The position numbers were made by a program, and so were the translations under genes. Below, piece after piece: positions 32,522 through 44,613 of a stretch of 48,776 nt of DNA. Within the stretch, counting starts at the first letter, position 1. The number at the start of each line of letters is the position of its first letter. The stretch lies in the IMG/VR virus record IMGVR_UViG_3300007734_000711, positions 1-48,776 of that record; one strand, given 5' to 3'. This stretch comes from a virus. The notes under the pieces are model-generated. The model did no database searches. It was not told where the DNA came from and saw only the letters and a list, made by a program, of their open reading frames with translations.

Positions 32522-33826
32522 TTAGCGCGGGAACCAATGGCCGGAGTTCATCGCGTCGATGGCTGCGGCTTCGGCTGCGGCAAGAGCGGAGGCGTCATCA
32601 AGAGCAGCATCGTCGCCGCCCCAGATGCGTAGTGTCCGAGTATTCATCGAATGCCATAACGACACAGCAAGAGCCAATGCGCAGACGGCATCATCATGTA
32701 ACCCTGACGGCGCAGTATAGCGCACTCCGGTGCGTGTGTATTCAAATTCGAATGCACCCAGTTCATTGGCAATCACGCCGTCTGGGAAAGTGATCTGCCG
32801 CTGCTGGATGGCGACCGCAAGACCTTCCATGATCTGCTGCTTGCTGCTGCTAGAGAATTTAAAGCCTTCATACCGTGTGCCTTGATCACGCCCACGCTTC
32901 TGCAATGATTCCAGCACGGGATCACCGACACCTGTTGAGTCTACAAGCGCCGTCACCTGACCAGTCAGCCCAATGATCCTGCTGATTGTGTCTTCCCATG
33001 GGCCTTGCCATCGCTCAAAGTCGCAGACGCCTCCCTGAGCGTCTAAGGCTATTGCAACAGTCCAGTCACTCGACTTGGCGAGGTCGATGCCCCAGACCAC
33101 CGCAGGGCCAGCGCTCAGTGGTGCCACGCACTTGTTAATGGCGTCTATGCCGAATGGATTCGCGGCATCGTCCGAGGGTTCTGCAAGGTAGAGTTCCTTG
33201 AACACAGATACTGGCAGGTGGCGTTGCGCGTCTTCAATTTCAGATCGTGGGATGACCTTCGCGTCAGCCGCATCATGCGCTGTGATACGAGCGTAGTGCA
33301 TGTCTGGTGCGCCTGACTCTGCACGACGCGCCATTCGATACGCCCAGTTCTTTCGGCCTTTGACGTTGCCAATGATCCTGATCGGGCCGTTCGTCGCAGT
33401 CAGTGTGGAACGAACTGCGACCCACGCATCTTCCTTGCAGCGCGTGGCTTCATCAATGACTGCGGCGTAGACATCCTCACCGTAGAGTGAGTCAGCATGG
33501 TCTGCGCCTTTGAACCAGATGATCGCGCCGTTGCTCAATGTGAGCGTAAGTTCAGTGAGATTTACCGTGTACAGGCTTCGCGGCATGAACCTACGCAAGC
33601 GCTTGAACGCAATCTTTGCCTGATCTCTGATAGGCGCAACCCACCAAAAGTTTTGGCCTTCTGATCCACTCAACGCTTGCTCAGTCAGCCAGACAATGCA
33701 GCCTACTGTCTTCCCTGACTTTGTTGACGCCTCTATTAAGCCATAGCGTTCCTTGCAGAATATGGCGTTCTTCTGTTTTGGATACAACACCGGCCTTGTA
33801 TAGCTGTGTTCTACTTGCGTAGGCAT
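32522..33826 (-). CDS. terL: Terminase large subunit
   Basis: 434 residues. ATPase: Walker A STKSGKT (34-40), Walker B YAAVIDEAT (D125, E126), IIGNVKG coupling motif near 151-157. Nuclease: GIDLAKSSDW (D248), LVDSTGVGD (D296, D302) and GLHDDAVCAL (D378, D379). It packages DNA with the portal. The small terminase is at 37041-37457, separated by the ParB/PAPS-reductase island, which is unusual. There is no clear ribosome binding site before ATG 33826, and a TATACA box lies just upstream. Confidence 0.93.
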   Translation of the reverse strand: MPTQVEHSYTRPVLYPKQKNAIFCKERYGLIEASTKSGKTVGCIVWLTEQALSGSEGQNFWWVAPIRDQAKIAFKRLRRFMPRSLYTVNLTELTLTLSNGAIIWFKGADHADSLYGEDVYAAVIDEATRCKEDAWVAVRSTLTATNGPIRIIGNVKGRKNWAYRMARRAESGAPDMHYARITAHDAADAKVIPRSEIEDAQRHLPVSVFKELYLAEPSDDAANPFGIDAINKCVAPLSAGPAVVWGIDLAKSSDWTVAIALDAQGGVCDFERWQGPWEDTISRIIGLTGQVTALVDSTGVGDPVLESLQKRGRDQGTRYEGFKFSSSSKQQIMEGLAVAIQQRQITFPDGVIANELGAFEFEYTRTGVRYTAPSGLHDDAVCALALAVSLWHSMNTRTLRIWGGDDAALDDASALAAAEAAAIDAMNSGHWFPR

Positions 33827-33846: not shown

Positions 33847-34551
33847 TTACTTCGTTCTGATAGAGTCAATGAATTTTGCTGCAACTCCATCTACGTATGT
33901 TCTATTCAACATTGGGTGATCTTCATCTGATGGCCCCATGTCAGTATCCGGATGCCATGCGATTACATCCAGCGTAGAGTCAGTAGTTTCAAATGCGTGA
34001 CGAGAGCCTTCTGGTAACAGCCAGACCATGCCCTTCTTCAGTTCGATTCTTTGATCTGGTAGATTGCACCAGCCATGCCCAGAGATAATCAAGCCACATC
34101 GAACGCTCTCATGCGTATGCATGGTTTGATTAATGCCAACCGGGAAGTGCAAATGATTCAAGCACGGATCGCCGATTTTCATCGGGCCGATCAGTAGCGT
34201 ATCTGTGCATCCATCGATGTATTTCAGCCGACCTGTTTCTTCAATCGGGCCTCCTAGATAGAACTGACCCTTATATTCTGGAAGCATAATCAGAGAGCAT
34301 GTCCCGCTGACATAGATAGCTAAAAGACTTGGGCTGCTAAAGAACATTCCAGCCTTTATCGAATATTGGCCTTCAGCAGTGATGATAATTCCATTACTGT
34401 CAGTCGCTCCGTAAAATGTCCTTACCTGATCAGGCGTAGTAATCGGAGCCGATTCTGCGGCAGACCAATGCCCATCTACATTCCAAACGACGCACGGATA
34501 AGAACCGTTATCTGGCATCCTTCCTGTGACTGAATACATTACGTCTTTCAT
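33847..34551 (-). CDS. Cupin-domain protein
   Basis: 234 residues from ATG 34551, which overlaps the ParB stop (ATGA). The C-terminal half has NHLHFPVGINQTMHTHESVRCGLIISGHGW, WLLPEGSRHAFETTDSTLDVIAWHPD: a cupin barrel with H-H, H-H and E metal ligands. Cupins may bind sugars or metal-dependent substrates. The same kind of protein accompanies ParB/PAPS-reductase genes in this island, so a linked role is inferred. AT-richer than neighbours. Confidence 0.75.
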   Translation of the reverse strand: MKDVMYSVTGRMPDNGSYPCVVWNVDGHWSAAESAPITTPDQVRTFYGATDSNGIIITAEGQYSIKAGMFFSSPSLLAIYVSGTCSLIMLPEYKGQFYLGGPIEETGRLKYIDGCTDTLLIGPMKIGDPCLNHLHFPVGINQTMHTHESVRCGLIISGHGWCNLPDQRIELKKGMVWLLPEGSRHAFETTDSTLDVIAWHPDTDMGPSDEDHPMLNRTYVDGVAAKFIDSIRTK

Positions 34552-35060
34552 TTGGGAACCCATCCTTGAGAAAACTCTTTTTTTCTGCGTGAAACAACTT
34601 CTGGTGAACCGGCTTTTTCTGCCAGCCTATACACTTCTTCGTCTTCCATCCCCAATAGAAGGCATATTTCTTCAACGGCCATACTGGATGCGATTAATTC
34701 GGACACGATCTTTGCCATGTCCAGAACAGCGTGTTCGCCTCTGGCTCTGTTGTGGCGAATCGTTGACATCATCAAGTGAGAGCGGGAGTTAATGATCCTT
34801 ACTATAGGCACAAGTCCATTAGTAATTGCAGCAATCGAAGCATCAGCAGATGTCTTCCACCTATGCTCTCCATCAACAATTACAGGCTTCTCTCCGCTAC
34901 TATCATCAAACACGACAATCGGCTGAGTCCATCCATCTTCCAATAAACTTATTTTAAGCAGCTTGAATTCTACTTGCGGCTGCTTATTTGGATTGTAATC
35001 ATTTGGCCTGATTGAGTCTCGCGGAACCCACTCTACCGCGCTGATTGGCTGATTTATCAT
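34548..35060 (-). CDS. ParB/Sulfiredoxin-fold protein (second copy)
   Basis: 170 residues. VPRDSIRPNDYNPNKQP, then SLLEDGWTQPIVV and PVIVDGEHRWKTS is the ParB N-terminal/Srx pattern, with the GEHR motif that forms the nucleotide site. The helical C-terminal part contains SSMAVEEICLLLGM--EEVYRLA, a helix-turn-helix. It may bind nucleotides (ParB proteins use CTP, sulfiredoxin ATP). Overlaps the PAPS-reductase stop. Confidence 0.82.
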   Translation of the reverse strand: MINQPISAVEWVPRDSIRPNDYNPNKQPQVEFKLLKISLLEDGWTQPIVVFDDSSGEKPVIVDGEHRWKTSADASIAAITNGLVPIVRIINSRSHLMMSTIRHNRARGEHAVLDMAKIVSELIASSMAVEEICLLLGMEDEEVYRLAEKAGSPEVVSRRKKEFSQGWVPK

Positions 35061-36220
35061 TGATGTATCCCACGCTTCTTTCTCTCAGAGAGCGCAACGT
35101 TACAAATTTTTTGGAATACCCTGTCAAACTTATTCCCACCTACTCGTGCTGCTATATAAATTAACTTCCAGCTAAAGCCGCTTAATGGATCTGGCTCTGC
35201 GTCTGGTAGGCTCACCTTGCTTCTTGATCTATGCACACTCAACATACGAGCGATGGCCTTTGAGACTTCCATGCGCGACTCAGGTGTTAATTTAGAGATC
35301 AGCCTCATAGTTACAGATTGCCAAGTATCGCCTTCAGGCAGTTCAGCGGATACTATATTGCTCCCATAAAGTTCGGTATTCGCATATCTCGCTGCCGTTG
35401 CCGCGCCATGCACTCTTGCTGTCATTTTTGACCATAGCTCAGGCCAGCAGGTCTTAAATTGATGAAGACCGCGAATTGGCTGTTCTCCAAACGGCGGTGC
35501 GCAGCGCTGCGAGTGAAGCGGCACTCCTTCTTTATGCATTACATCGTATGCATGGTTATAGTCCCACCCATACATATCAGGAGCAAGCCATACATCTTCG
35601 GTAGCCCAATCGTAGATTGGATATGCCTTTGTTACATTTTTTGAACCAGCAAATGGAGATAAGAATGCACCAAATCCGCTTTTGCTGGCTACAGATCCAT
35701 ACCGGCTCATGCTCTCTTGTGTGCGTATGCCCATGACCAGCGCAACAGTTCCCATGGATGGAGGGAACATTTTGACTCCGAGCTTGTCTAAGCCTGTACG
35801 CTCAAATCCGCTAAAGTCAGTGATCGCTGTCTTCGGCAAATCCCTAACCCATAGGTCTTTTTTCTCACTAGCCCACGGATTCCAAAATGGCTCACTCGTA
35901 GAACACGCATTCCTATGAACAATAGGGACGCAATACCACTTAAATTCTAGGTCTGGATTTGTTGATATTCTTTCGCAGTATTCAACTGTCTCTGGAGGTA
36001 TGCATTCTTCATCGAACGTGAAGACATGCAACGGTAGGCGTTTGCGTAGCCTCGCTACTTCAAGGCATAAGTTAAGGCAGACCGTTGAGTCCTTGCCGCC
36101 AGAGAAAGACACTGCTACATGATCAAATGAGTCAAACAGGTATTCAATACGTTTAATGCTTAAGTCGTAACACGATGAGTCAACAGGCGATTTTTTTCTA
36201 ATTTTCGGCATGTTCATCAT
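35057..36220 (-). CDS. PAPS reductase / IbrA-like protein
   Basis: 387 residues. PP-loop VAVSFSGGKDSTVCLNL at residues 36-52 identifies the ATP-pyrophosphatase/PAPS reductase fold. FTFDEECIPPETVEY follows as in IbrA/DUF3440-type proteins. MGIRTQES-SR and AYPIYDWATEDVWL are also typical. Cysteines near C266-C284 (RCAPPFGEQPI...TCW) could bind metal. In DNA phosphorothioation (DndC) a related fold activates DNA with sulfur; in IbrAB it is a partner of a ParB-like protein. Alternative starts at 36217 and 36211. Confidence 0.82.
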   Translation of the reverse strand: MMNMPKIRKKSPVDSSCYDLSIKRIEYLFDSFDHVAVSFSGGKDSTVCLNLCLEVARLRKRLPLHVFTFDEECIPPETVEYCERISTNPDLEFKWYCVPIVHRNACSTSEPFWNPWASEKKDLWVRDLPKTAITDFSGFERTGLDKLGVKMFPPSMGTVALVMGIRTQESMSRYGSVASKSGFGAFLSPFAGSKNVTKAYPIYDWATEDVWLAPDMYGWDYNHAYDVMHKEGVPLHSQRCAPPFGEQPIRGLHQFKTCWPELWSKMTARVHGAATAARYANTELYGSNIVSAELPEGDTWQSVTMRLISKLTPESRMEVSKAIARMLSVHRSRSKVSLPDAEPDPLSGFSWKLIYIAARVGGNKFDRVFQKICNVALSERKKRGIHQ

Positions 36221-36830
36221 TCCATTGAATCAAAGCCTTAGACAAAGCAGTGCCGGTAGAATCGCAGCCGAATACTACCTTGGCCTTCCTCAATATCTGA
36301 TGAACCATCAGTTGTTCATCAATAGTCAAAGGGCAACTGAAGTGCATGAAATCGGAAGACTCTGCCTTATCAGTATTTGAACTTGCTTCTTCGCTAGATG
36401 CCATCTCCTCTATTAAAGCTGCATCTACATTAGATGACATTGATTTAATCAATTCATCGAACTCTGGAGTAACGCTGATCATTGAAGCAAGCAGCGATTG
36501 CAGTTGACTGTTATCAGATTCAGCCAGCGCAGCTATAGGATCAAAGGTTGCCAGCACTTTTGCTGCTTCAATATCATCTAAATCAACCACTAGCACCGGC
36601 ACTATGGCGTCAGGTGTTGTCTCTGCCCTAAGATGTCCGTCGATGATCTGATACCCGCCTTCATACTCTCGCACCATGATGGCGTCTACGTAGCCTACTT
36701 CTTTCAAGATGCCTGACATGGCATCCTGTTGAGCTTTGGGATGCTTGCGCCAGTTTTGCGGATGCGGCGTCAGGTCGCTGGCCTTGATCCTCGTGAACTC
36801 AACAATGCGATCTCGTATGTCGAGGCTCAT
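36198..36830 (-). CDS. ParB-like protein (IbrB-like, first copy)
   Basis: 210 residues from ATG 36830. ASDLTPHPQNWRKHPKAQQDAM, V--VDAIMVREYEGGYQIIDGHLRAE, V--VDLDDIEAAKVLATFDPIAALAE is the ParB/Srx domain of the kind found beside phage methylases and PAPS reductases; GHLRAE is the phosphate-binding motif. The rest is helical. It overlaps both neighbours, so it is translated with the PAPS-reductase gene. Confidence 0.85.
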   Translation of the reverse strand: MSLDIRDRIVEFTRIKASDLTPHPQNWRKHPKAQQDAMSGILKEVGYVDAIMVREYEGGYQIIDGHLRAETTPDAIVPVLVVDLDDIEAAKVLATFDPIAALAESDNSQLQSLLASMISVTPEFDELIKSMSSNVDAALIEEMASSEEASSNTDKAESSDFMHFSCPLTIDEQLMVHQILRKAKVVFGCDSTGTALSKALIQWNDEHAEN

Positions 36831-37048
36831 GCCTTCTTCCACGTATCCAGCGAAATGCTGTGCGTGTCGCCGTACTGCCCGACTTCGTTGCGCTTGATAA
36901 TGTTCAAGTTCAGATAGCCGCGCTCGTTGGTGTGTGCCTCGATGAACCGCATCAAGTCTTCAGCCTTGATACCGACGTTCATGACGCTACCGCCGTTCGC
37001 GAAAATCTTTTCTTTGGCACTGCACTTCAAGTAAGTTTTCTCAGTCAT
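36827..37048 (-). CDS. Small conserved phage protein
   Basis: 73 residues: YLKCSAKEKIFANGGSVMNVGIKAEDLMRFI, ERGYLNLNIIKRNEVGQYGDTHSISLDTW. I recognise the pattern as a conserved small phage protein (KCSAKEK-F-NG--LN, QYG-TH---LD-W), often near replication genes; function unknown. ATG 37048 has GAGG upstream and overlaps the terminase small subunit stop. Confidence 0.75.
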   Translation of the reverse strand: MTEKTYLKCSAKEKIFANGGSVMNVGIKAEDLMRFIEAHTNERGYLNLNIIKRNEVGQYGDTHSISLDTWKKA

Positions 37049-37457
37049 TGTCATCCTCATTTTCGCCAAGCGTCCCGATGTCCAGTGTGAACTTTATCGG
37101 GCCAATCACTTCAGCCTTCGTCGGTTCATCCAAGCCGCAGAGCTTTGCGCGGCGTTCCATGATACGCACTTCCGCAAGAATAGCTTTCGTATCCCCCTTG
37201 TTCACATCAGCCGCGAGTCGCTGCGTCATGTGGTCGAGGCGCACAAGTTCCATCTCGCGCATCTTCTCTGCCGTGTCTTTCTTTACCTTGTCCAGCGATG
37301 ACAGCGCGTTCTGTACGTCATGGTAGGACGTAGCCTCATTCACGCCGCAGTCCTTCGCAATGGCCCTGTAGCTGAATCCGAGCATCCGCATATCCATTGC
37401 TCGTTGTTGTCGTAGTGCGATCACGACTTCGTGACCCTTGGCTTTGCCTTGCTTCAT
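37041..37457 (-). CDS. terS: Probable terminase small subunit
   Basis: 138 residues. ALRQQRAMDMRMLGFSYRAIAKDCGVNEATSYHDVQNAL is a helix-turn-helix, then AEKMREMELVRLDHMTQRL and ILAEVRIMERRAKLCGLDEP as in many phage small terminase-like proteins, which bind the packaging site. It lies 3.2 kb upstream of the large subunit, with the sulfur/ParB island between them. A general DNA-binding regulator is an alternative. Confidence 0.75.
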   Translation of the reverse strand: MKQGKAKGHEVVIALRQQRAMDMRMLGFSYRAIAKDCGVNEATSYHDVQNALSSLDKVKKDTAEKMREMELVRLDHMTQRLAADVNKGDTKAILAEVRIMERRAKLCGLDEPTKAEVIGPIKFTLDIGTLGENEDDND

Positions 37458-37483: not shown

Positions 37484-37858
37484 TCACAAGTCTAATAGTG
37501 CGGCTGACATGTCTTCTAGAGCATCAATCTGCTTCTGCAGGTCATCTTTCGTCTGCTTTGGTTTCTCTGCTCTGGCGGTTCGTGGTTCTGATACCTCCAA
37601 ATGCAGATCGTGCGCGAGATACGTTGCAACCCAGTCTATTTCCCCCTCTTCTTCCATGTCTTCAGATGGCTGAGGATCAAAATCAATGAACGATGGCTGA
37701 ACCTTGAGCGGATGCAGCATGTAGGGTTCTGCGTCGCCAATCTCGTCTAATACCTCTATGGCGTCTTCGACGGTATACGCATCAAACACAATAGAGCGTG
37801 TGCCATTCGGCCACATGCACAGCCAGCGACCAGTCGTATCGAAATCCAGACGGTTCAT
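37484..37858 (-). CDS. Unknown acidic protein
   Basis: 124 residues: RWLCMWPNGTRSIVFDAYTVEDAIEVLDEIGDAEP, then an acidic middle (EEEGEID) and a helical C-terminus (AEKPKQTKDDLQKQIDALEDMSAALLDL). No family recognised. It overlaps the cytidylyltransferase stop by four bases (ATGA). Role in packaging or in the sugar cassette cannot be told. Confidence 0.65.
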   Translation of the reverse strand: MNRLDFDTTGRWLCMWPNGTRSIVFDAYTVEDAIEVLDEIGDAEPYMLHPLKVQPSFIDFDPQPSEDMEEEGEIDWVATYLAHDLHLEVSEPRTARAEKPKQTKDDLQKQIDALEDMSAALLDL

Positions 37859-38532
37859 GCTTTCTTGCCTCGCTTCTTGAGTGGTGCATCTTCTGTGTCT
37901 AGACCATCTAGCACGTTGATCAATGTTCCGCGCAGATACTCAGCAACGACGGCAAGTTCTTCTTCCGTGTCTACGCTCAGCTTTGGGCCAGTCCATGGCG
38001 TGTCGGCCTTCAACGTAATGCACGAGAGGTTCTTCTTCATCCATGTCGTGACATGCTCACGCTCCGATGGCTTTGCCAGTGCGTTGGCCTGTGCCAGTGC
38101 GTCCATGCTGAACACTTCCACATCCCATCCGTCTGGATAGCCGCTGGTCAGCGTGTCGTTGCTTGCATAATCGATTTTCGGTCTGTTCGCGAGGAACAGT
38201 TCCAGCGTCTTGCTGGCGACAGTGGGGTCTAGCGCAGGGCAATCTCCCGTCAGGCGCATCACCGTATCGACGTTGCGGCCCTTAGTGGCGTCCATGAAGC
38301 GAGACAGCACATTCTGCTCATCGCCCAGCACAGGGTAGACGCAAGCCTCTCTGATGATCTTCTCTAGCCGCGTATCACCTGCCGGGATAGCAGCCACCAC
38401 AAGATCCACACCTGCGATCTGCTTGGCTCTCTCCAAGACATGCACAATCATCGGCGTGCCGTTAATATCTGCCAGAACTTTATTAGGGAACCGCGACGAG
38501 TTCAGCCGCGCTTGAACGATAGCAATCACCAT
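37855..38532 (-). CDS. Cytidylyltransferase, SpsF/NeuA/PseF-like
   Basis: 225 residues. AIVQARLNSSRFPNKVLADINGTPMIVHVLERA (3-35) is the nucleotide-binding start of the SpsF/NeuA/KdsB family, and RLTGDCPALDP (93-103) with VDT-EEL near 185-190 are further family motifs. It should activate a sugar acid with CTP to give a CMP-sugar. It is the last gene of the sugar cassette and may be read together with NeuB, aminotransferase and dehydratase. CAGGAGAC precedes the ATG. Confidence 0.85.
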   Translation of the reverse strand: MVIAIVQARLNSSRFPNKVLADINGTPMIVHVLERAKQIAGVDLVVAAIPAGDTRLEKIIREACVYPVLGDEQNVLSRFMDATKGRNVDTVMRLTGDCPALDPTVASKTLELFLANRPKIDYASNDTLTSGYPDGWDVEVFSMDALAQANALAKPSEREHVTTWMKKNLSCITLKADTPWTGPKLSVDTEEELAVVAEYLRGTLINVLDGLDTEDAPLKKRGKKA

Positions 38533-39020
38533 GATGTGTCTCCTGTGTAGTGCAATTCGCGCATGGTTGCGAGATCGATGTAGGCATTCATGCGGTCGAT
38601 TGATGTGTCATCATTGCATGTGCGCTTCGTCGCTGTCAGCGACACAACCGTATCAGCCGTTCTCGTGCCTTCCGCATCTGACATCTGCCAATAGACGATT
38701 CGGTGGTCAGTGCGTAGGCCAACAAACAGAAAGAACGGAACTTGAAGATCGGCTGAGATTCTACAGCCGCGCTTTATTTTGTCATTCGTAATCAGGTAAC
38801 TCCCGTAGGCATGTAGTTGCTCATAACCCATGTCCCTACATTTTACCTCAGCAATCGCCATTAATGTTCCATTACGTGCGAATAATGCATCGATGCTGGC
38901 ACTCGATGTCAGCGCTGTTTCGATAGCGTCTGCATGATAGGTCGCAGCAATGATCTGTGTGAGTCTTGATTGCCGTGATACCCATGACTTACCAGCGGAT
39001 GTCAAGCAATCGAGGCTCAC
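38526..39020 (-). CDS. Restriction-endonuclease-like nuclease
   Basis: 164 residues from GTG 39020, preferred over ATG 39044 because GGAGAC precedes it and GTGA overlaps the upstream stop. SASIDALFARNGTLMAIAEVKCRDM contains the D-x(n)-E-x-K core of PD-(D/E)XK nucleases. The N-terminal AATYHADAIET looks like an anchor helix. Possible roles are a host-DNA nuclease, resolvase or restriction-like protein. Confidence 0.7.
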   Translation of the reverse strand: MSLDCLTSAGKSWVSRQSRLTQIIAATYHADAIETALTSSASIDALFARNGTLMAIAEVKCRDMGYEQLHAYGSYLITNDKIKRGCRISADLQVPFFLFVGLRTDHRIVYWQMSDAEGTRTADTVVSLTATKRTCNDDTSIDRMNAYIDLATMRELHYTGDTSW

Positions 39021-39331
39021 TTGAGTCTCCAGACCATGATCCATCGTGCGTGATTGGAGATCCTCACTGACTGCTTACGCTGCCCCGTGAATTCCCATCG
39101 TTCGCCTCTGAAGAGTGACCCGGCCGCATTGCCGAGTAGATTCCCATCGTGGCCGAGCAGCGCGAGTTGCCGGTAGACATCATCGGCCGTTACGCAGCGA
39201 TCTGGCTTGCTGTTCGCGAGAGACACAGCCAGCATCCGTGCATAGCTCAGCACATACGCACGTTTCACAGCCGCGAGTTCTTTGCCAGCCTCCCTGAGCG
39301 TCTTGCCTAATTTTAGGTCAAATTTTTTCAT
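39017..39331 (-). CDS. Small conserved phage protein (DNA metabolism region)
   Basis: 104 residues. VTADDVYRQLALLGHDGNLLGNAAGSLFRGERWEFTGQRKQSVRISNHARWI is a pattern known from small phage proteins (DDVY--L...LGNAAGS-F----W---G-R-S-R-S-H---), probably DNA-related. ATGA overlap with its neighbours on both sides. The N-terminal region is basic (MKKFDLKLGKTLREAG). Confidence 0.7.
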   Translation of the reverse strand: MKKFDLKLGKTLREAGKELAAVKRAYVLSYARMLAVSLANSKPDRCVTADDVYRQLALLGHDGNLLGNAAGSLFRGERWEFTGQRKQSVRISNHARWIMVWRLK

Positions 39332-40212
39332 GAGGCATACATCCGTGATACAGGGAACGGTTGATCTGTGCCGCCAAAGCCACGCCTGAAGAACTCTATG
39401 TCTCGCCCCTTCTTGCTTGTGGCGTGTCCCTGCCAGCCCATGTCAAATCTATTACTGGTGCTCGTTTGTATTGCTTCCCAGATGAGAGCGTGGTTAATGT
39501 CTTTGGATCGTGTCGCTGCATGGCCGTAATACTCCATGTCTTTGTATGTGTAGATATACACCGCGCCATCGCAGATGCCAGCGACGTTCCATGCCAGACA
39601 GAGATACGCATGGCCTGACTGCACCCATGCCGCCATAGCATCCCATGTGATCTGCGGTCTGGTTTCTTTTTCAGCTTGCTCACGATGAAGCGCATGCAGA
39701 ATAGCAACGTCCCGTGGATCATTCGATGCGTATATGCGATGCGTCTTATCTGCATTATTCACCAGCGATTTATAACTCTTTCGAACATGCAGCCAGCGTT
39801 GAATCACTTCGATGTCGCACATGGGTTGCAGGTCAATGATGCGTGTCTTCCATGACAGGTCGTGTGCCTCTGTGCCAGCGTATGTGCCTCTGAAATCGTA
39901 GTGATCGATGTGATAGGCATCCATTACATGGCTCAGGTGTTTGCGCATCTCATCTCGTGCGATGTCATGGCTCCAGATCGGCTGCGGACAGGGATTGGAA
40001 TCATAGAGCAACGCGCTGCCATCTTGAATGATCGGGCAGATGGCGACGATCTCTCCATCCTCAATAACAGCGAAGCTCAGATTCAGAAGATGAGTTCCAA
40101 GAGATTCGCAATACGACATCCATCCAGATCGATGCCAGAACCATGCATCAGGATGCGTGTCGCAGTAGCTATCCCACTGCTGACTTAGTGAGTGTGACCA
40201 CGGGAGAATCAC
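39328..40212 (-). CDS. FemAB/GNAT-like acyltransferase
   Basis: 294 residues. AWFWHRSGWMSYCESLGTHLLNLSFAVIEDGEIVAICPI, LRVRKS-like WLHVRKSYKSLVNN, and in the second half a GNAT-like fold (HALHREQAEKETRPQITWDAMAAW, GICDGAVYIYTYKDMEYYGHAA, LIWEAIQTS) fit the FemAB-type peptidyl/acyl transferase group that often modifies surface sugars. Part of the sugar cassette. GTG at 40212 overlaps the previous stop (GTGA). Confidence 0.75.
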   Translation of the reverse strand: MILPWSHSLSQQWDSYCDTHPDAWFWHRSGWMSYCESLGTHLLNLSFAVIEDGEIVAICPIIQDGSALLYDSNPCPQPIWSHDIARDEMRKHLSHVMDAYHIDHYDFRGTYAGTEAHDLSWKTRIIDLQPMCDIEVIQRWLHVRKSYKSLVNNADKTHRIYASNDPRDVAILHALHREQAEKETRPQITWDAMAAWVQSGHAYLCLAWNVAGICDGAVYIYTYKDMEYYGHAATRSKDINHALIWEAIQTSTSNRFDMGWQGHATSKKGRDIEFFRRGFGGTDQPFPVSRMYAS

Positions 40213-41003
40213 CTGACCACCGAGCGGTATTGGCGCATCTCTAACTCTTTGACTGAGAGCGCATGCACAGACTGACCTACGGCGAGTTCTGCCTTCCTGA
40301 TGTTCTGCACATACTCTGCGAATGCTTTGGGTAGATGCGCGAATGCACCACCGTCAGGATTCAGCCCATCCGTGTCTATGAGTTTCATATGCGCTTCTAT
40401 GATGGTTGCACCCGCGCACACGGCATAGGCTCCCATCTGTGGATCACCGCTATGGTCTGAATACCCAATCGCGTGATGCGAGTATCTACCCACGAGACGC
40501 CAAATGCTCCTCAAGTGCATCGATGGCAACGTGGCCGGATACGCCGTTACGCAGTGCAAGAGTGCATCTTGTTGCCTGATTTTCACAGCAGGAGAGATAG
40601 CCTCATTGATGCTGACAATGACTTGCCTATCACCAGCCTCAGCAATCGCAGCGTGAAGCACATCTGTGCTGTGTGACTCAAACGCGGATACTTTCATCCG
40701 CTTCACAAACCGCGAGACAACCGTGGCATCTTCAGGCAGGAAGCACGTAGCCATGAACTCAATGCGTTCGCCGCAGTAGTCCTTTAGGACGCTCATCCAT
40801 TCGACTGGTATTTGATATTTCTTGTATATGTCTCTGTAATACTTCGGCACACGACGCCGATCAGCCAGACGATCTGCGTCAGACCAGAACTGAACCTTCA
40901 CCGCGTTACATCCTGTCTCTGCGGCAAAATCGATGAGCTGCTTGGCTTTGCGAATGTCTCCATCGTGCGCGGAAGCCATCTCTCCAATGACAAAGACGCT
41001 CAT
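40209..41003 (-). CDS. NeuB/PseI-like sialic acid synthase
   Basis: 264 residues. VIGEMASAHDGDIRKAKQLIDFAAETGCNAVKVQFWSD (4-41) is the NeuB-type start (GE-----G----A--LI--A---G--AVK-Q). VPVEWMSVLKDYCGERIEFMATCF, and GYSDHSGDP near residues 200-208 are also family motifs. It should condense a hexosamine-type sugar with phosphoenolpyruvate to a nonulosonic acid. The normal C-terminal SAF domain is missing (length 264 versus about 340). Confidence 0.85.
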   Translation of the reverse strand: MSVFVIGEMASAHDGDIRKAKQLIDFAAETGCNAVKVQFWSDADRLADRRRVPKYYRDIYKKYQIPVEWMSVLKDYCGERIEFMATCFLPEDATVVSRFVKRMKVSAFESHSTDVLHAAIAEAGDRQVIVSINEAISPAVKIRQQDALLHCVTAYPATLPSMHLRSIWRLVGRYSHHAIGYSDHSGDPQMGAYAVCAGATIIEAHMKLIDTDGLNPDGGAFAHLPKAFAEYVQNIRKAELAVGQSVHALSVKELEMRQYRSVVR

Positions 41004-41530
41004 ACGGCCTCTCTGTCATGACTCAGCAGCCCCATCATGATGCTGTCTACGAACCGGCCATCGCGGAATGCATGTTCGCGTTGACGGCCTTCATAGGAGA
41101 ATCCGATTCGTTCTAATAGATTCATGCTTGCGATATTGAAGTCGTAGACTTCTGCCCAGATGCGATGCAGCCCTTGCTGAAATCCCCATCCCACCAGCAG
41201 CGACAGCGCACGTTTCATCAGACCCTTGCCACGGAACAATGGCTCACCAATATAGAAGGAAATTTCTGCGTAGCGGTTGTGTGTATTCCATCCGCATAAT
41301 CCAATCACGCCGATGGGCACTTCATGCTGCATCAGCATGAACATGTGGTCAGTGCGATCAGGCCCAGAGATACGCTCAAACCAGACCCCTTGATCGACAC
41401 GGCTCAGTGCTTTCCATTCGCGTGTCCTGCTTCGTAACTCAGGGTCGTTACGCCATACCCGCAAACGCTCAAGATCGCCGCGCTCGATTGGGCGCAGAGC
41501 GATGTCGCCATCAGAGAGGAACGCACTCAT
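41000..41530 (-). CDS. GNAT acetyltransferase (PseH-like)
   Basis: 176 residues. LRPIERGDLERLRVWRNDPELR, ISFYIGEPLFRGKGLMKRALSLLVGWGFQQGLHRIWAEVYDFNIASMNLLERIGFSYEG shows the complete GNAT fold with the R-GKG acetyl-CoA loop. Resembles PseH and RimJ/RimL-type enzymes. In the cassette it would N-acetylate the amino-sugar intermediate. Overlaps both neighbours. Confidence 0.85.
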   Translation of the reverse strand: MSAFLSDGDIALRPIERGDLERLRVWRNDPELRSRTREWKALSRVDQGVWFERISGPDRTDHMFMLMQHEVPIGVIGLCGWNTHNRYAEISFYIGEPLFRGKGLMKRALSLLVGWGFQQGLHRIWAEVYDFNIASMNLLERIGFSYEGRQREHAFRDGRFVDSIMMGLLSHDREAV

Positions 41531-42744
41531 CGGCGCACCGAGGCTTCGTATGGTGCCGACCGCACAGCGAGTGCTAACTGCGCATCGTCCATTGACTGCA
41601 TTCTCCCAATCACACCAGCGACAACCTCGCGTGCCTCATCTATGTGATGCGTGTTCATCACTCCGCTGATGTTCACGATCTGCGGGTGGAACAACACACC
41701 GGCCTCAGCGCATTCCTGCACGAAGTAGCTCATGCCGATACGCTGGTTATGCCTCAGCAGCCTGATCTGGAAGTGCGGTGGATACCCATGCAATGACACC
41801 ACATCTTGATCAAATGCATCCCACAGCCGCTTCCCGTTGCTGCGGATCGTCTCGATGATTCCTTCTGACTCATAGACATCCAGCATCGCGCTGCATGCCG
41901 CAAGACCAATCGCATCGCCTGAATATGTTCCAGAGATCGGCCACGCATGCTGCATCACGCGGACAGAACCAGTCACGAATGCGAAGGAGTATCCCGCCCC
42001 GAACGCTTTGCCGAATGTCGCCATGTCTGGTGTGACAGAGAAGAATTCCTGCCCACCTGCCAGCGCATGTCTGCCACCCATGATCATTTCGTCAAAGATC
42101 AGCAGCGATCCTGCCTGATGCGTCATCGCTCTGACAGCCTTCAGAAATCCGTCTGGTGGTGTGCTGAGTCGTGCGGGTTCAATCATCACCGCAGCAACAT
42201 CAGGCCCGAGCGCGGCTTCAAGGCTGTCTAGGTCGCCATAGGTGAATGACCTGACGAACTGGCTCATGCCGTCAGGCACACCGGGATGCATATCTGAGAG
42301 AACTCTAAAGCCATCATGCCAGCCGTGATACCCCGTGTCTTCGCAGAGGATGACATCACGCCCTGTGTAGCTTCTGGCGATACTCGCGGCTGCGGAACAG
42401 GCTTCAGATCCTGTCTTGAGAAACCGAATATTCTGAGCGCACGGAATGACCTTGCAGAGGCGTTCTGCCACTTCATACTCTAGGCGATGCGGAAAAGAAA
42501 ACAGCGCACCGTCTACCACTTGCTCAATGACGGCCTCTTCTATGACTGGATGACCATAGCCCAGCGTAGTCGCGCCCAGAGAGCACACGAAGTCGAGATA
42601 CTCCCTACCATCCGTTGCTGTCACATATGGCCCACGACCGCTGTAGGCGAATCGTTCGCCATCAATTGGGTATGAGGCTGGACGCTTCGACATCGTGTGC
42701 GATCCACGCGGTGTCATGGCTTCAGCGCGTTCTCGTAAGGTCAT
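41527..42744 (-). CDS. Class III aminotransferase (glutamate-1-semialdehyde-like)
   Basis: 405 residues from ATG 42744, chosen because it overlaps the previous stop (ATGA). PLP motifs: LIFDEMI (D218), ATFGKAFGAGY (K246, the Schiff-base lysine), EYLDFVCSLGATTLGYGHP, FLKTGSEACSAA (phosphate binding). The pattern is that of GSA-aminomutase-like class III transaminases found in sugar clusters. It would transaminate a keto-sugar made by the PseB-like enzyme. Confidence 0.85.
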   Translation of the reverse strand: MTLRERAEAMTPRGSHTMSKRPASYPIDGERFAYSGRGPYVTATDGREYLDFVCSLGATTLGYGHPVIEEAVIEQVVDGALFSFPHRLEYEVAERLCKVIPCAQNIRFLKTGSEACSAAASIARSYTGRDVILCEDTGYHGWHDGFRVLSDMHPGVPDGMSQFVRSFTYGDLDSLEAALGPDVAAVMIEPARLSTPPDGFLKAVRAMTHQAGSLLIFDEMIMGGRHALAGGQEFFSVTPDMATFGKAFGAGYSFAFVTGSVRVMQHAWPISGTYSGDAIGLAACSAMLDVYESEGIIETIRSNGKRLWDAFDQDVVSLHGYPPHFQIRLLRHNQRIGMSYFVQECAEAGVLFHPQIVNISGVMNTHHIDEAREVVAGVIGRMQSMDDAQLALAVRSAPYEASVRR

Positions 42745-43541
42745 CGGCATCGCGTCACCTGTGCAATGACATCCATGACAGCGATGCCTTGCTGTAAGGT
42801 GCATCCAAATGTAGGTTGCCTCTTATTTTTTACAGCATCAAGAAAATGGCTCATTGCTGCGACATACATGTGGTTTCCTAGCTCAGAAGGATCTGCGAAC
42901 TCGTACTCAACCGTGGATGATCCACTGTAGAGCGACCATGTGCGGTCATATTTCTTCGATGACCCTAACAGTTCAACTGACCATCCATTGTCAAAGCCAA
43001 GATAGGCCCATCGGCTAGATGCATTCACATCCCAAAACACTAACGGCCCTGCGCCAAAGTACAACGCTAAATCAATTTCGTGTGACATCTCTGATAGGAA
43101 ATTGCCGCGACCAGATTCACCAACCCATTGATCCATGTTGCAAGCGCAGAACAGCTTTCCGCTGTCAATAGCTGTCGCTCCGACCGCCGTTGCGTGTTTT
43201 CTGATGTCAGGATGGAAACGCAGTTGATAGCCCACCATGATCGTAGGCAGGTCTGGCTTCTTCGCGATACGCCGCAGCGCACCGAGGTCTGCCTGTGACG
43301 CAACAGGCTTCTCGATATACACCGGAAGCCTTTTCCTCATGCACACCTTCAGCACAGACATGTGATGCGCAGTCGGTACACAGATCACGGCAGCGTCTGC
43401 GTTCGCCAGTTTCTTACTCAGCTCGGAAAGTTTCATCGTGCGCGGATGGGTGTCGATGACCGACACGGTATGGCCCATCCGCAGCAGGTTGCTGGCATGG
43501 CGCATCCCGATACTACCGACGCCAATGACTGCAACAGTCAT
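42741..43541 (-). CDS. Gfo/Idh/MocA-family oxidoreductase
   Basis: 266 residues. MTVAVIGVGSIGMRHASNLLRMGH (1-24) is an NAD(P)-binding Rossmann start, IVCVPTAHH-like AVICVPTAHHM and VYIEKPVA (with catalytic lysine of the EKP motif) are typical of Gfo/Idh/MocA. It is shorter than most members. In nonulosonic acid clusters such enzymes oxidise or reduce a hexose intermediate. Overlaps the dehydratase and aminotransferase genes. Confidence 0.85.
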   Translation of the reverse strand: MTVAVIGVGSIGMRHASNLLRMGHTVSVIDTHPRTMKLSELSKKLANADAAVICVPTAHHMSVLKVCMRKRLPVYIEKPVASQADLGALRRIAKKPDLPTIMVGYQLRFHPDIRKHATAVGATAIDSGKLFCACNMDQWVGESGRGNFLSEMSHEIDLALYFGAGPLVFWDVNASSRWAYLGFDNGWSVELLGSSKKYDRTWSLYSGSSTVEYEFADPSELGNHMYVAAMSHFLDAVKNKRQPTFGCTLQQGIAVMDVIAQVTRCR

Positions 43542-44497
43542 GCGTGTACAACCTGAAGAACTTGCGGTGAGTCGGCTGACGTATACATGAATCCGTGTGG
43601 CACTCGTTCGCCATGCATGAGTTCCATGTCAGAATCTCGCAAGATTACATACATCCCATCTGCGTTCAGCCAGCATCGCTCTGCTTCTTTCTTGCTGACT
43701 AACTCTTCGTGCATCTTCTCACCGGGCCTGATGCCAATCTCTTTGACAACGCAATCTGGGAAGCCCATCGCCAACGCGCCCACTGTCGCGCTTGGGATGC
43801 TCGGCACGAAAATCTCGCCGCCGATTCCATTCCTGATCGCGTAGATAACCAGTTCTACGGCTGAAATGACTGGTCGTCCATGTGGCTCCTCATAGACCAT
43901 CACATCCGCATCAGGACTCAGCGGCATGTGGAAGCGCGTCATGGTTTTGTCAGTGACCGTGATCTCGCCAGTCTTCTGCTGCTTGATGAACAGCGGGATC
44001 ACACTGCCGCTTGACCCTGCCACATTCCCATAGCGCACTGACGTATAACCAAAGTCAGAGATGATCTTCTCGGCCTTTGCCTTGCTCTTGCCGTAAGCAT
44101 TGACAGGTGCGCATGCCTTGTCTGTCGAGAGAGCCACCAGTGTTGAGACGTTGCGTGACATGGCGAACGTAGCGATATTCCTCGCGCCAGCCACATTGAT
44201 GTCGTTGACGTAGTGCGTGTGGTTCTCTCCAGTCACGATGTGTTTTTCAGCAGCCGCATGCACCACTGTGTCTACGTGCCCTGCATAGCAATGATGAAGA
44301 TCGTTCATGTGGCGCACATCGCCGGGGACAACAAGCAATCTGCTGTCTGGGAAATCTTGCTCTAGCTTGTAGCGCATCTCCGCGTTGCGAGAGACGGACA
44401 CAATTTTTTCAGCCATCTCATGCTTGAGCAAATACGCGATGAAGGCGCGACCGAATGATCCTGTCCCGCCGGTAATCATGAGGGTGCCGAATGTCAT
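43538..44497 (-). CDS. PseB-like UDP-GlcNAc 4,6-dehydratase
   Basis: 319 residues from ATG 44497, which overlaps the stop of the small zinc-ribbon gene (ATGA). MITGGTGSFG (7-16) is the NAD-binding motif, LSTDKACAPVNAYGKSK holds S/T-D-K and YxxxK (Y135, K139), and GYTSVRYGNVAGSSGSVIP and RPGEKMHEEL are typical of the CapD/PseB/FlaA1 group. It should convert UDP-GlcNAc to a 4-keto-6-deoxy sugar, the first step of pseudaminic or related sugar synthesis. Confidence 0.88.
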   Translation of the reverse strand: MTFGTLMITGGTGSFGRAFIAYLLKHEMAEKIVSVSRNAEMRYKLEQDFPDSRLLVVPGDVRHMNDLHHCYAGHVDTVVHAAAEKHIVTGENHTHYVNDINVAGARNIATFAMSRNVSTLVALSTDKACAPVNAYGKSKAKAEKIISDFGYTSVRYGNVAGSSGSVIPLFIKQQKTGEITVTDKTMTRFHMPLSPDADVMVYEEPHGRPVISAVELVIYAIRNGIGGEIFVPSIPSATVGALAMGFPDCVVKEIGIRPGEKMHEELVSKKEAERCWLNADGMYVILRDSDMELMHGERVPHGFMYTSADSPQVLQVVHA

Positions 44498-44613
44498 TGT
44501 GTCTTTGCTTTCCATGAATAGGCGCACACGTTACAGAACCAGTCCGCGCCAATTTTCTCGATCATCCTGTCTTCGCCACAATGAGGACAGCGCGTATCTT
44601 TTGTTTCACTCAT
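44494..44613 (-). CDS. 39-residue zinc ribbon protein
   Basis: Residues 9-13 CPHCG and 27-30 CNVC with W--C-V-CAYSW: a complete four-cysteine zinc ribbon. ATG 44613 overlaps the stop of 44610-44825 (ATGA), and its own TGA overlaps the dehydratase ATG. Probably a small regulator or redox/metal-binding protein. Confidence 0.7.
   Translation of the reverse strand: MSETKDTRCPHCGEDRMIEKIGADWFCNVCAYSWKAKTQ

Follow-up and report, generated by a model that had tools for sequence, protein, structure and literature searches.

Bacteria display nonulosonic acids as key recognition sugars on their flagella, capsules and lipopolysaccharide (LPS), and the locus considered here raises the question of whether a phage can make such a sugar for itself. 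The window analyzed, IMG/VR record IMGVR_UViG_3300007734_000711, is a linear phage record of 48,776 b that carries a sugar cassette on its minus strand (37855-44527). The original prediction saw in this cassette a pathway to a cytidine monophosphate (CMP)-activated, nonulosonic-acid-like sugar, and this is still the best reading: seven sugar genes are present, full-length and intact, and their families recur together in several other phage lineages unrelated to one another, so that the operon probably encodes a working phage route to a CMP-activated, sialic-acid-like sugar.

Enzymes of the cassette

In the order of transcription, the cassette encodes a PseB-like dehydratase, a Gfo/Idh oxidoreductase, a class III aminotransferase (AT3, the short name also used for loci and trees), a GNAT acetyltransferase, a NeuB-like synthase, a FemX-like transferase, a 104-aa protein, a PD-(D/E)XK nuclease and an SpsF-type cytidylyltransferase. 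All are translationally coupled, with overlaps of 4-64 nt between neighbors that mostly amount to 4 nt, which agrees with the seven coupled enzyme genes first described. Profile hidden Markov model (HMM) searches place the enzymes in the families then named, the FemAB-like protein weakly and by NCBIfam, and, but for one altered loop in NeuB, the catalytic motifs are retained.

The first gene (43538..44527, minus strand, as are all genes of the window given below) encodes a PseB-like uridine diphosphate (UDP)-GlcNAc 4,6-dehydratase (TIGR03589, 1.8e-68) with the motifs TGGTGSFG at residue 19, STDKA at 134 and YGKSK at 145; its nearest solved structure is FlaA1/PseB 2gn4 (9.7e-47). The cassette had been given an end at 44497, but this reading frame reaches 44527 with a GTG start, and 44497 is an internal ATG that may still serve as the start. 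It overlaps by 4 nt the gene for a 266-aa Gfo/Idh/MocA oxidoreductase (42741..43541; PF01408, 4.9e-9), which contains SHEIDLA at residue 153 and, at residue 77, an EKP motif conserved in 15 phage homologues. AT3 follows (41527..42804). Its pyridoxal phosphate lysine, K266, and D238 are invariant across 16 homologues, and its best NCBIfam match is PRK06209. It is of class III rather than the DegT type, as had been noticed: it matches PF00202 (2.8e-40), and no DegT/PseC gene (PF01041) was found in the whole window record by a search that matched control genomes. The longest open reading frame gives 425 aa; a length of 405 aa is probable, because an alternative ATG at 42744 restores an ATGA overlap with the Gfo/Idh gene. 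The next product, a PseH-like GNAT N-acetyltransferase (41000..41530), matches TIGR03585 (1e-19) with 71 bits against a cut-off of 93. At the far end of the cassette lies a 225-aa cytidylyltransferase of the SpsF/KdsB/NeuA type (37855..38532; PF02348, 1.2e-21), with the R/K-rich motif QARLNSSRFPNKVL at residue 7 and RLTGDCP at residue 93. Its best solved match is the cytidylyltransferase 6oew (3.3e-23), and it scores 19 bits against the PseF profile, the cut-off of which is 206, being closer to the KdsB and SpsF types.

The NeuB-like, phosphoenolpyruvate (PEP)-condensing synthase (40209..41003; PF03102, 2.3e-33) retains K36, K104, E109, Y155, S182, H184, H205 and D217, among them the two metal-binding histidines and the residues of the SDH motif. 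Its AlphaFold2 model (pLDDT 95.1, pTM 0.91) was matched by Foldseek to SpsE, Leptospira NeuB, Neisseria meningitidis NeuB and PseI, and the predicted structure is that of a sialic/pseudaminic synthase, a TIM barrel with PEP- and metal-binding residues. The adjacent gene (39328..40212) encodes a 294-aa protein that had been described as a FemAB/GNAT-like transferase. The FemAB kinship stands, through a weak NCBIfam profile match (3e-6), and the predicted structure (pLDDT 83.9), a double-GNAT Fem fold, refines it to the fold of aminoacyl-tRNA-dependent transferases, with FemX as the top Foldseek match (1e-13, TMq 0.66). Foldseek also matched Sba18/Sbb17, aminoacyl-tRNA-dependent enzymes whose solved structures contain bound streptothrisamine, an amino-sugar compound; identity to FemX and Sba18/Sbb17 is ∼12%. 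From this predicted fold, the protein may aminoacylate an amino sugar.

Two genes lie within the operon between those for the FemX-type transferase and SpsF. The predicted PD-(D/E)XK nuclease is borne out as an inserted endonuclease gene (38526..39044) of the PDDEXK_14 family (PF24579, 6.4e-9; EVK at residue 66), and the 104-aa protein (39017..39331) has no Pfam, NCBIfam or PHROG match. Neither has a homologue in any other cassette, on which ground both were ruled out as parts of the pathway; the 104-aa protein probably stands outside it. A 124-aa protein without a family match (37484..37858) is coupled to SpsF by a 4-nt overlap.

The cassette has a phage-like GC content (0.49-0.56, against 0.546 for the phage). 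It is preceded by primase/helicase, Holliday-junction-resolvase-like and HNH genes and followed by genes for the small (TerS) and large (TerL) terminase subunits, portal, protease and HK97 capsid. The TerS-like gene directly downstream (37041..37457) encodes a protein 79% identical to one upstream of TerL in the nearest relatives, contigs L003 and L004, and the window TerL (32522..33826; phrog_2, 3.8e-27) is 86% identical to theirs. Around TerS, these relatives replace the cargo of the window with preQ0/7-deazaguanine genes (L003:78-3600, L004:147-2992), named from their sequences as QueC, QueD, QueE and FolE upstream of TerS, with a phosphoribosyltransferase gene before TerL. The presence of this set at the same place suggests that the site takes up exchangeable cargo; both contigs end shortly upstream, that of L004 beginning within the Que run, and a cassette farther out is possible. 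Between TerS and TerL, the window also holds a PAPS-reductase/DUF3440 protein with two ParB-like neighbors (34548-36842), resembling IbrA/IbrB pairs, the PAPS gene having a GC content (0.46) below that of the phage, as well as a cupin-domain protein just upstream of TerL (33847-34563).

Recurrence in phages and bacteria

Related loci were gathered by a TerL scan, by scans with NeuB and AT3 alignments and by iterated HMM searches; a scan of IMG/VR with the single NeuB protein gave no matches, while the alignment-based NeuB scan did yield loci. The TerL scan led to a second phage (L010; TerL 63% identical to that of the window) in which PseB, two NeuBs, Gfo/Idh, AT3, a cytidylyltransferase and a GNAT, ∼30% identical to the enzymes of the window, lie directly after TerL. 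This contig also carries an adenylosuccinate-synthetase-like gene (L010:792-1850) by dUTPase-like and ribonucleotide-reductase-like genes, from its sequence appearance a possible PurZ/2-aminoadenine set. Altogether the enzyme set was found in ∼80 IMG/VR loci of at least four lineages, with the full complement of seven families grouped in nine additional viral loci, some of them near-copies of one another, and four to six families in many more. The same families occur jointly in other phage contigs, which puts the enzyme set far outside what chance would give; the set is present in one of 80 loci of a TerL-drawn sample. The linkage was also measured independently of how loci were picked: among those selected by AT3 alone (n = 74), SpsF occurs in 69, PseB in 62 and NeuB in 51; among those selected by NeuB alone (n = 80), Gfo/Idh accompanies 16 of 23 with AT3, in contrast to 2 of 57 without it. 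A natural SpsF::AT3 fusion protein in 31 phage loci suggests that the amination step directly adjoins activation. Related phage cassettes are under purifying selection, with dN/dS of ∼0.05-0.2 in most unsaturated comparisons, the window itself having no close cassette-bearing relative, and many cassettes adjoin TerL, portal, capsid or virion genes.

The AT3 matches in INPHARED are transaminases of the GSAM, GABA and ornithine types, many of them in apparent bacterial records filed as phage, and were set aside as evidence; a relative of NeuB or SpsF occurs there in just two huge-phage records. In the huge-phage record LR756508 (L002:57-15429), glycosyltransferase-, sulfotransferase- and GDP-fucose-pathway-like genes surround a NeuB without the C-terminal SAF (antifreeze-like) domain, and AT3 is absent. 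The searchable open-access literature gave no account of a nonulosonate operon in phages; neuB has been listed as frequent in viromes, amid worries about contamination (PMC3877843).

Four ARRANGEMENTS of the cassette can be told apart, designated A, B, C and D. Lineage A comprises GNAT, methyltransferases, Gfo/Idh, SpsF::AT3, PseB, DegT and NeuB, adjoins TerL and portal, and keeps DegT without PseG; two S-adenosylmethionine methyltransferase families recur inside its cassettes (25 and 14 loci; L204:6967-7587, L222:6593-7414). Lineage B, with NeuB, PseB, an aldo/keto reductase, AT3, GNAT, FemX, a BFO_1060-family glycosyltransferase and SpsF, sits inside the virion module, with capsid and virion proteins on both flanks. 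Its glycosyltransferase (L177:12490-13806) is a candidate nonulosonic-acid transferase; BFO_1060 of Tannerella forsythia, of which the open-access papers searched gave no mention, is implicated in transfer of a nonulosonic acid to the S-layer glycan. Lineage C, the nearest to the window, has the order PseB-Gfo-NeuB-GNAT-FemX-SpsF-AT3 and occupies the same site, between HNH/resolvase genes and TerS/TerL. Lineage D (PseB-Gfo-SpsF-AT3-GNAT) has the weakest claim to phage origin, since no hallmark phage gene was identified beside the two of its cassettes tested.

In a tree of AT3 proteins, the cluster-associated enzymes split from eight GSAMs (98% SH-aLRT) and are thus distinct from GSAM/HemL. The window falls in an 11-row all-phage clade (99%) and lineages B and D form another all-viral clade (97%), groupings that may in part be a sampling effect, given limited sampling of cells and a quick tree. 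Lineage A lies among alphaproteobacterial enzymes, and another group lies near Nitrosotalea. This pattern points to acquisition on several occasions and to a long stay in phages.

Bacterial clusters that pair AT3, SpsF and NeuB, with which a comparison had been proposed, were sampled by class-wide searches; the matches of the AT3 alignment listed from genome contigs were mostly GSAM/HemL. By comparison with the 25 cell loci obtained, from flagellin/LPS clusters that hold AT3, the phage version is reduced: PseG is found in 17 of 25 cell loci, in contrast to 1 of 80 phage loci, and DegT in 18 of 25 as compared with 29 of 80. Conversely, a FemX-type gene occurs in 27 of the 80 phage loci and in 1 of the 25 from cells. 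A NeuB tail long enough for SAF is present in all 18 scored cell loci and, among phages, in lineage A and in the group of L099, L116 and L126; almost all the remaining phages, among them the window and other DegT-less ones, have a NeuB without it. The bacterial AT3-SpsF clusters (Colwellia L238; L240; L359-L378; Legionella pneumophila) share with the phages AT3, SpsF (often fused), PseB, NeuB, GNAT and an aldo/keto reductase or Gfo/Idh, and differ in mostly holding PseG and DegT/PseC and in keeping the SAF domain of NeuB. In Colwellia, as named from the sequences, flagellin is followed by PseB, PseC, an aldo/keto reductase, GNAT, SpsF, AT3, PseG::GNAT (the PseG an HMM match above its cut-off), a formyltransferase, PseI with SAF, PIG-L and a Maf-like gene; the pairing of PIG-L deacetylase and formyltransferase-like genes recurs in phage cassettes (L116:11706-12356, L164:11893-12420). 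The lp6_762-775 locus of L. pneumophila Sg6/Sg12 is similar to these clusters (PMC3694923).

Because cell clusters usually pair AT3 with a complete PseB-PseC-PseH-PseG-PseI set, AT3 is not simply a stand-in for PseC, and its role as a general PseC replacement was rejected; judged by this gene content, it most likely adds a further amino group. When compared with the CMP-pseudaminic acid pathway, the operon of the window likewise contains a PseB-like dehydratase, a cytidylyltransferase and a synthase of the NeuB/PseI family, with a GNAT that matches the PseH profile below its cut-off, but it lacks PseG and PseC, has an SpsF/KdsB-type enzyme instead of PseF and a NeuB without SAF, and adds AT3, Gfo/Idh and the FemX-type transferase.

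Missing steps and competing explanations

Several observations weigh against the nonulosonic-acid pathway. The lack of a PseG-type hydrolase, noticed at the outset, proved systematic across phage lineages: the whole window record has no match to PseG (TIGR03590), which control genomes match, one weak match was found among 50 whole phage records, and a NeuC/LegG-type hydrolyzing 2-epimerase (PF02350) is found in none of 49 phage records, the window included, as compared with 11 of 14 controls; DegT occurs in 13 of 49 whole phage records. No CMP-sugar-using transferase was recognized among the window proteins. NeuB, at 264 aa with 85 residues after the SDH motif, has no SAF domain, and the STG loop that most relatives possess reads SIN. 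NeuB of Leptospira borgpetersenii (PDB 6ncs; TM-score 0.85, 26% identity) is a TIM barrel of similar length whose solved 290-residue chain, which may be a truncated construct, also lacks SAF; the STG motif is altered in the window protein. No enzyme of the cassette reaches an NCBIfam equivalog cut-off, so that the scores show the family and not the exact substrate, and substrates may differ. On the other side, we count in favor of the pathway the BFO_1060-family glycosyltransferase of lineage B and the Colwellia homologue, whose cluster, with a complete Pse set, is bounded by flagellin and a Maf-like gene.

The absent steps might be supplied by the host. A host running a Pse- or Leg-type pathway, with PseC and PseG, would receive from the phage extra copies of bottleneck enzymes together with AT3/Gfo and the acyl- and aminoacyl-transferases, and its glycans or those of the phage would be re-decorated during infection. 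As regards the product, this is a sub-case of the nonulosonic-acid pathway, and a rival to it as regards self-sufficiency. The distribution of PseG and DegT between cells and phages favors it, and host supply would be a simple explanation of the gap, lineage A having DegT without PseG, but the SAF-less and DegT-less lineages would each time need hosts with compatible intermediates; we regard it as a serious possibility that falls somewhat short of an even chance. A short, self-contained phage route to a novel aminoacylated nonulosonic-acid sugar that dispenses with hydrolase, PseC and SAF, uses AT3 as sole aminotransferase and ends in coated virions appears unlikely. It is also rather improbable that the cassette has two separate outputs, with PseB, Gfo, AT3, GNAT and FemX making a 6-deoxy sugar that is UDP-linked, aminated and acylated, and NeuB and SpsF making a CMP-ulosonic acid from an aldose of the host. 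Such a division would account for the missing PseG/NeuC, no UDP hydrolase being needed, and for a NeuB that has an altered STG motif and no SAF, yet the fusion partner of SpsF is AT3 and not NeuB, and cells interleave the same genes with PseG, which points to one linear pathway.

Two further explanations concern the place of the cassette in the phage. The enzymes are of bacterial type and sister phages lack the cassette at the same site, as far as their contigs reach, as would be expected of a captured host LPS or flagellar fragment, non-functional or near loss, or of mis-binned bacterial DNA. Intact genes with coupled starts, phage-like GC, same-strand phage genes on both sides, the deep all-phage AT3 clade and purifying selection in other phage lineages argue otherwise, and this very improbable explanation is largely refuted. 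Least probable of all is that a sugar or acyl group is placed on phage DNA as an anti-restriction device. The QueC-QueD-QueE-FolE genes held by the nearest relatives at the same place by TerS mean that the site is able to carry DNA-modification cargo, but we know of no DNA-modification route that uses NeuB or SpsF, and lineage B cassettes lie within a virion module with a surface-glycan-type glycosyltransferase.

Proposed route and its significance

For the CMP-activated nonulosonic-acid pathway, all steps are proposed from family membership and comparison, and the best reading of the product is an extra-aminated, acetylated and probably aminoacylated nonulosonic-acid-like CMP-sugar. PseB would convert host UDP-GlcNAc to a 4-keto-6-deoxy sugar, and Gfo/Idh and AT3 would oxidize and aminate one carbon; with DegT/PseC present, the AT3 amine would be an extra one (perhaps at C8), whereas AT3 is the only aminotransferase in the window. 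When Shewanella makes 8-amino-Kdo (Kdo8N), an oxidoreductase and an aminotransferase, KdnB and KdnA, work on an ulosonic acid that is still free and not yet CMP-activated; the proposed Gfo, AT3 and SpsF steps would follow the same logic by analogy, although the enzyme families differ and Kdo8N is an 8-carbon sugar. Extra-amine chemistry has a precedent in the 8-amino-5,7-diacylamino nonulosonic acid of Flexibacter maritimus LPS (PMC3210612), a sugar known but not linked to these genes. GNAT would acetylate one amine and the FemX-type enzyme would acylate another, probably with an aminoacyl group. Release of the sugar from UDP, for which no gene is recognizable, would be supplied by the host or another route, after which NeuB would join the free sugar with PEP and SpsF would activate the product to the CMP-sugar. 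A host transferase or an unrecognized one would then attach it, the most likely acceptors being proteins of the virion or the surface of the host.

The lack of the hydrolase and of the SAF domain suggests enzymology of an unfamiliar kind, and the phage cassettes allow the pairing of class III aminotransferase and SpsF in bacterial clusters to be approached by comparison. If the proposed pathway is correct, many phages would make their own sialic-acid-like sugar, which may serve as a virion coat, in adsorption, stability or evasion of binding proteins, or in remodeling of the host surface for superinfection exclusion.

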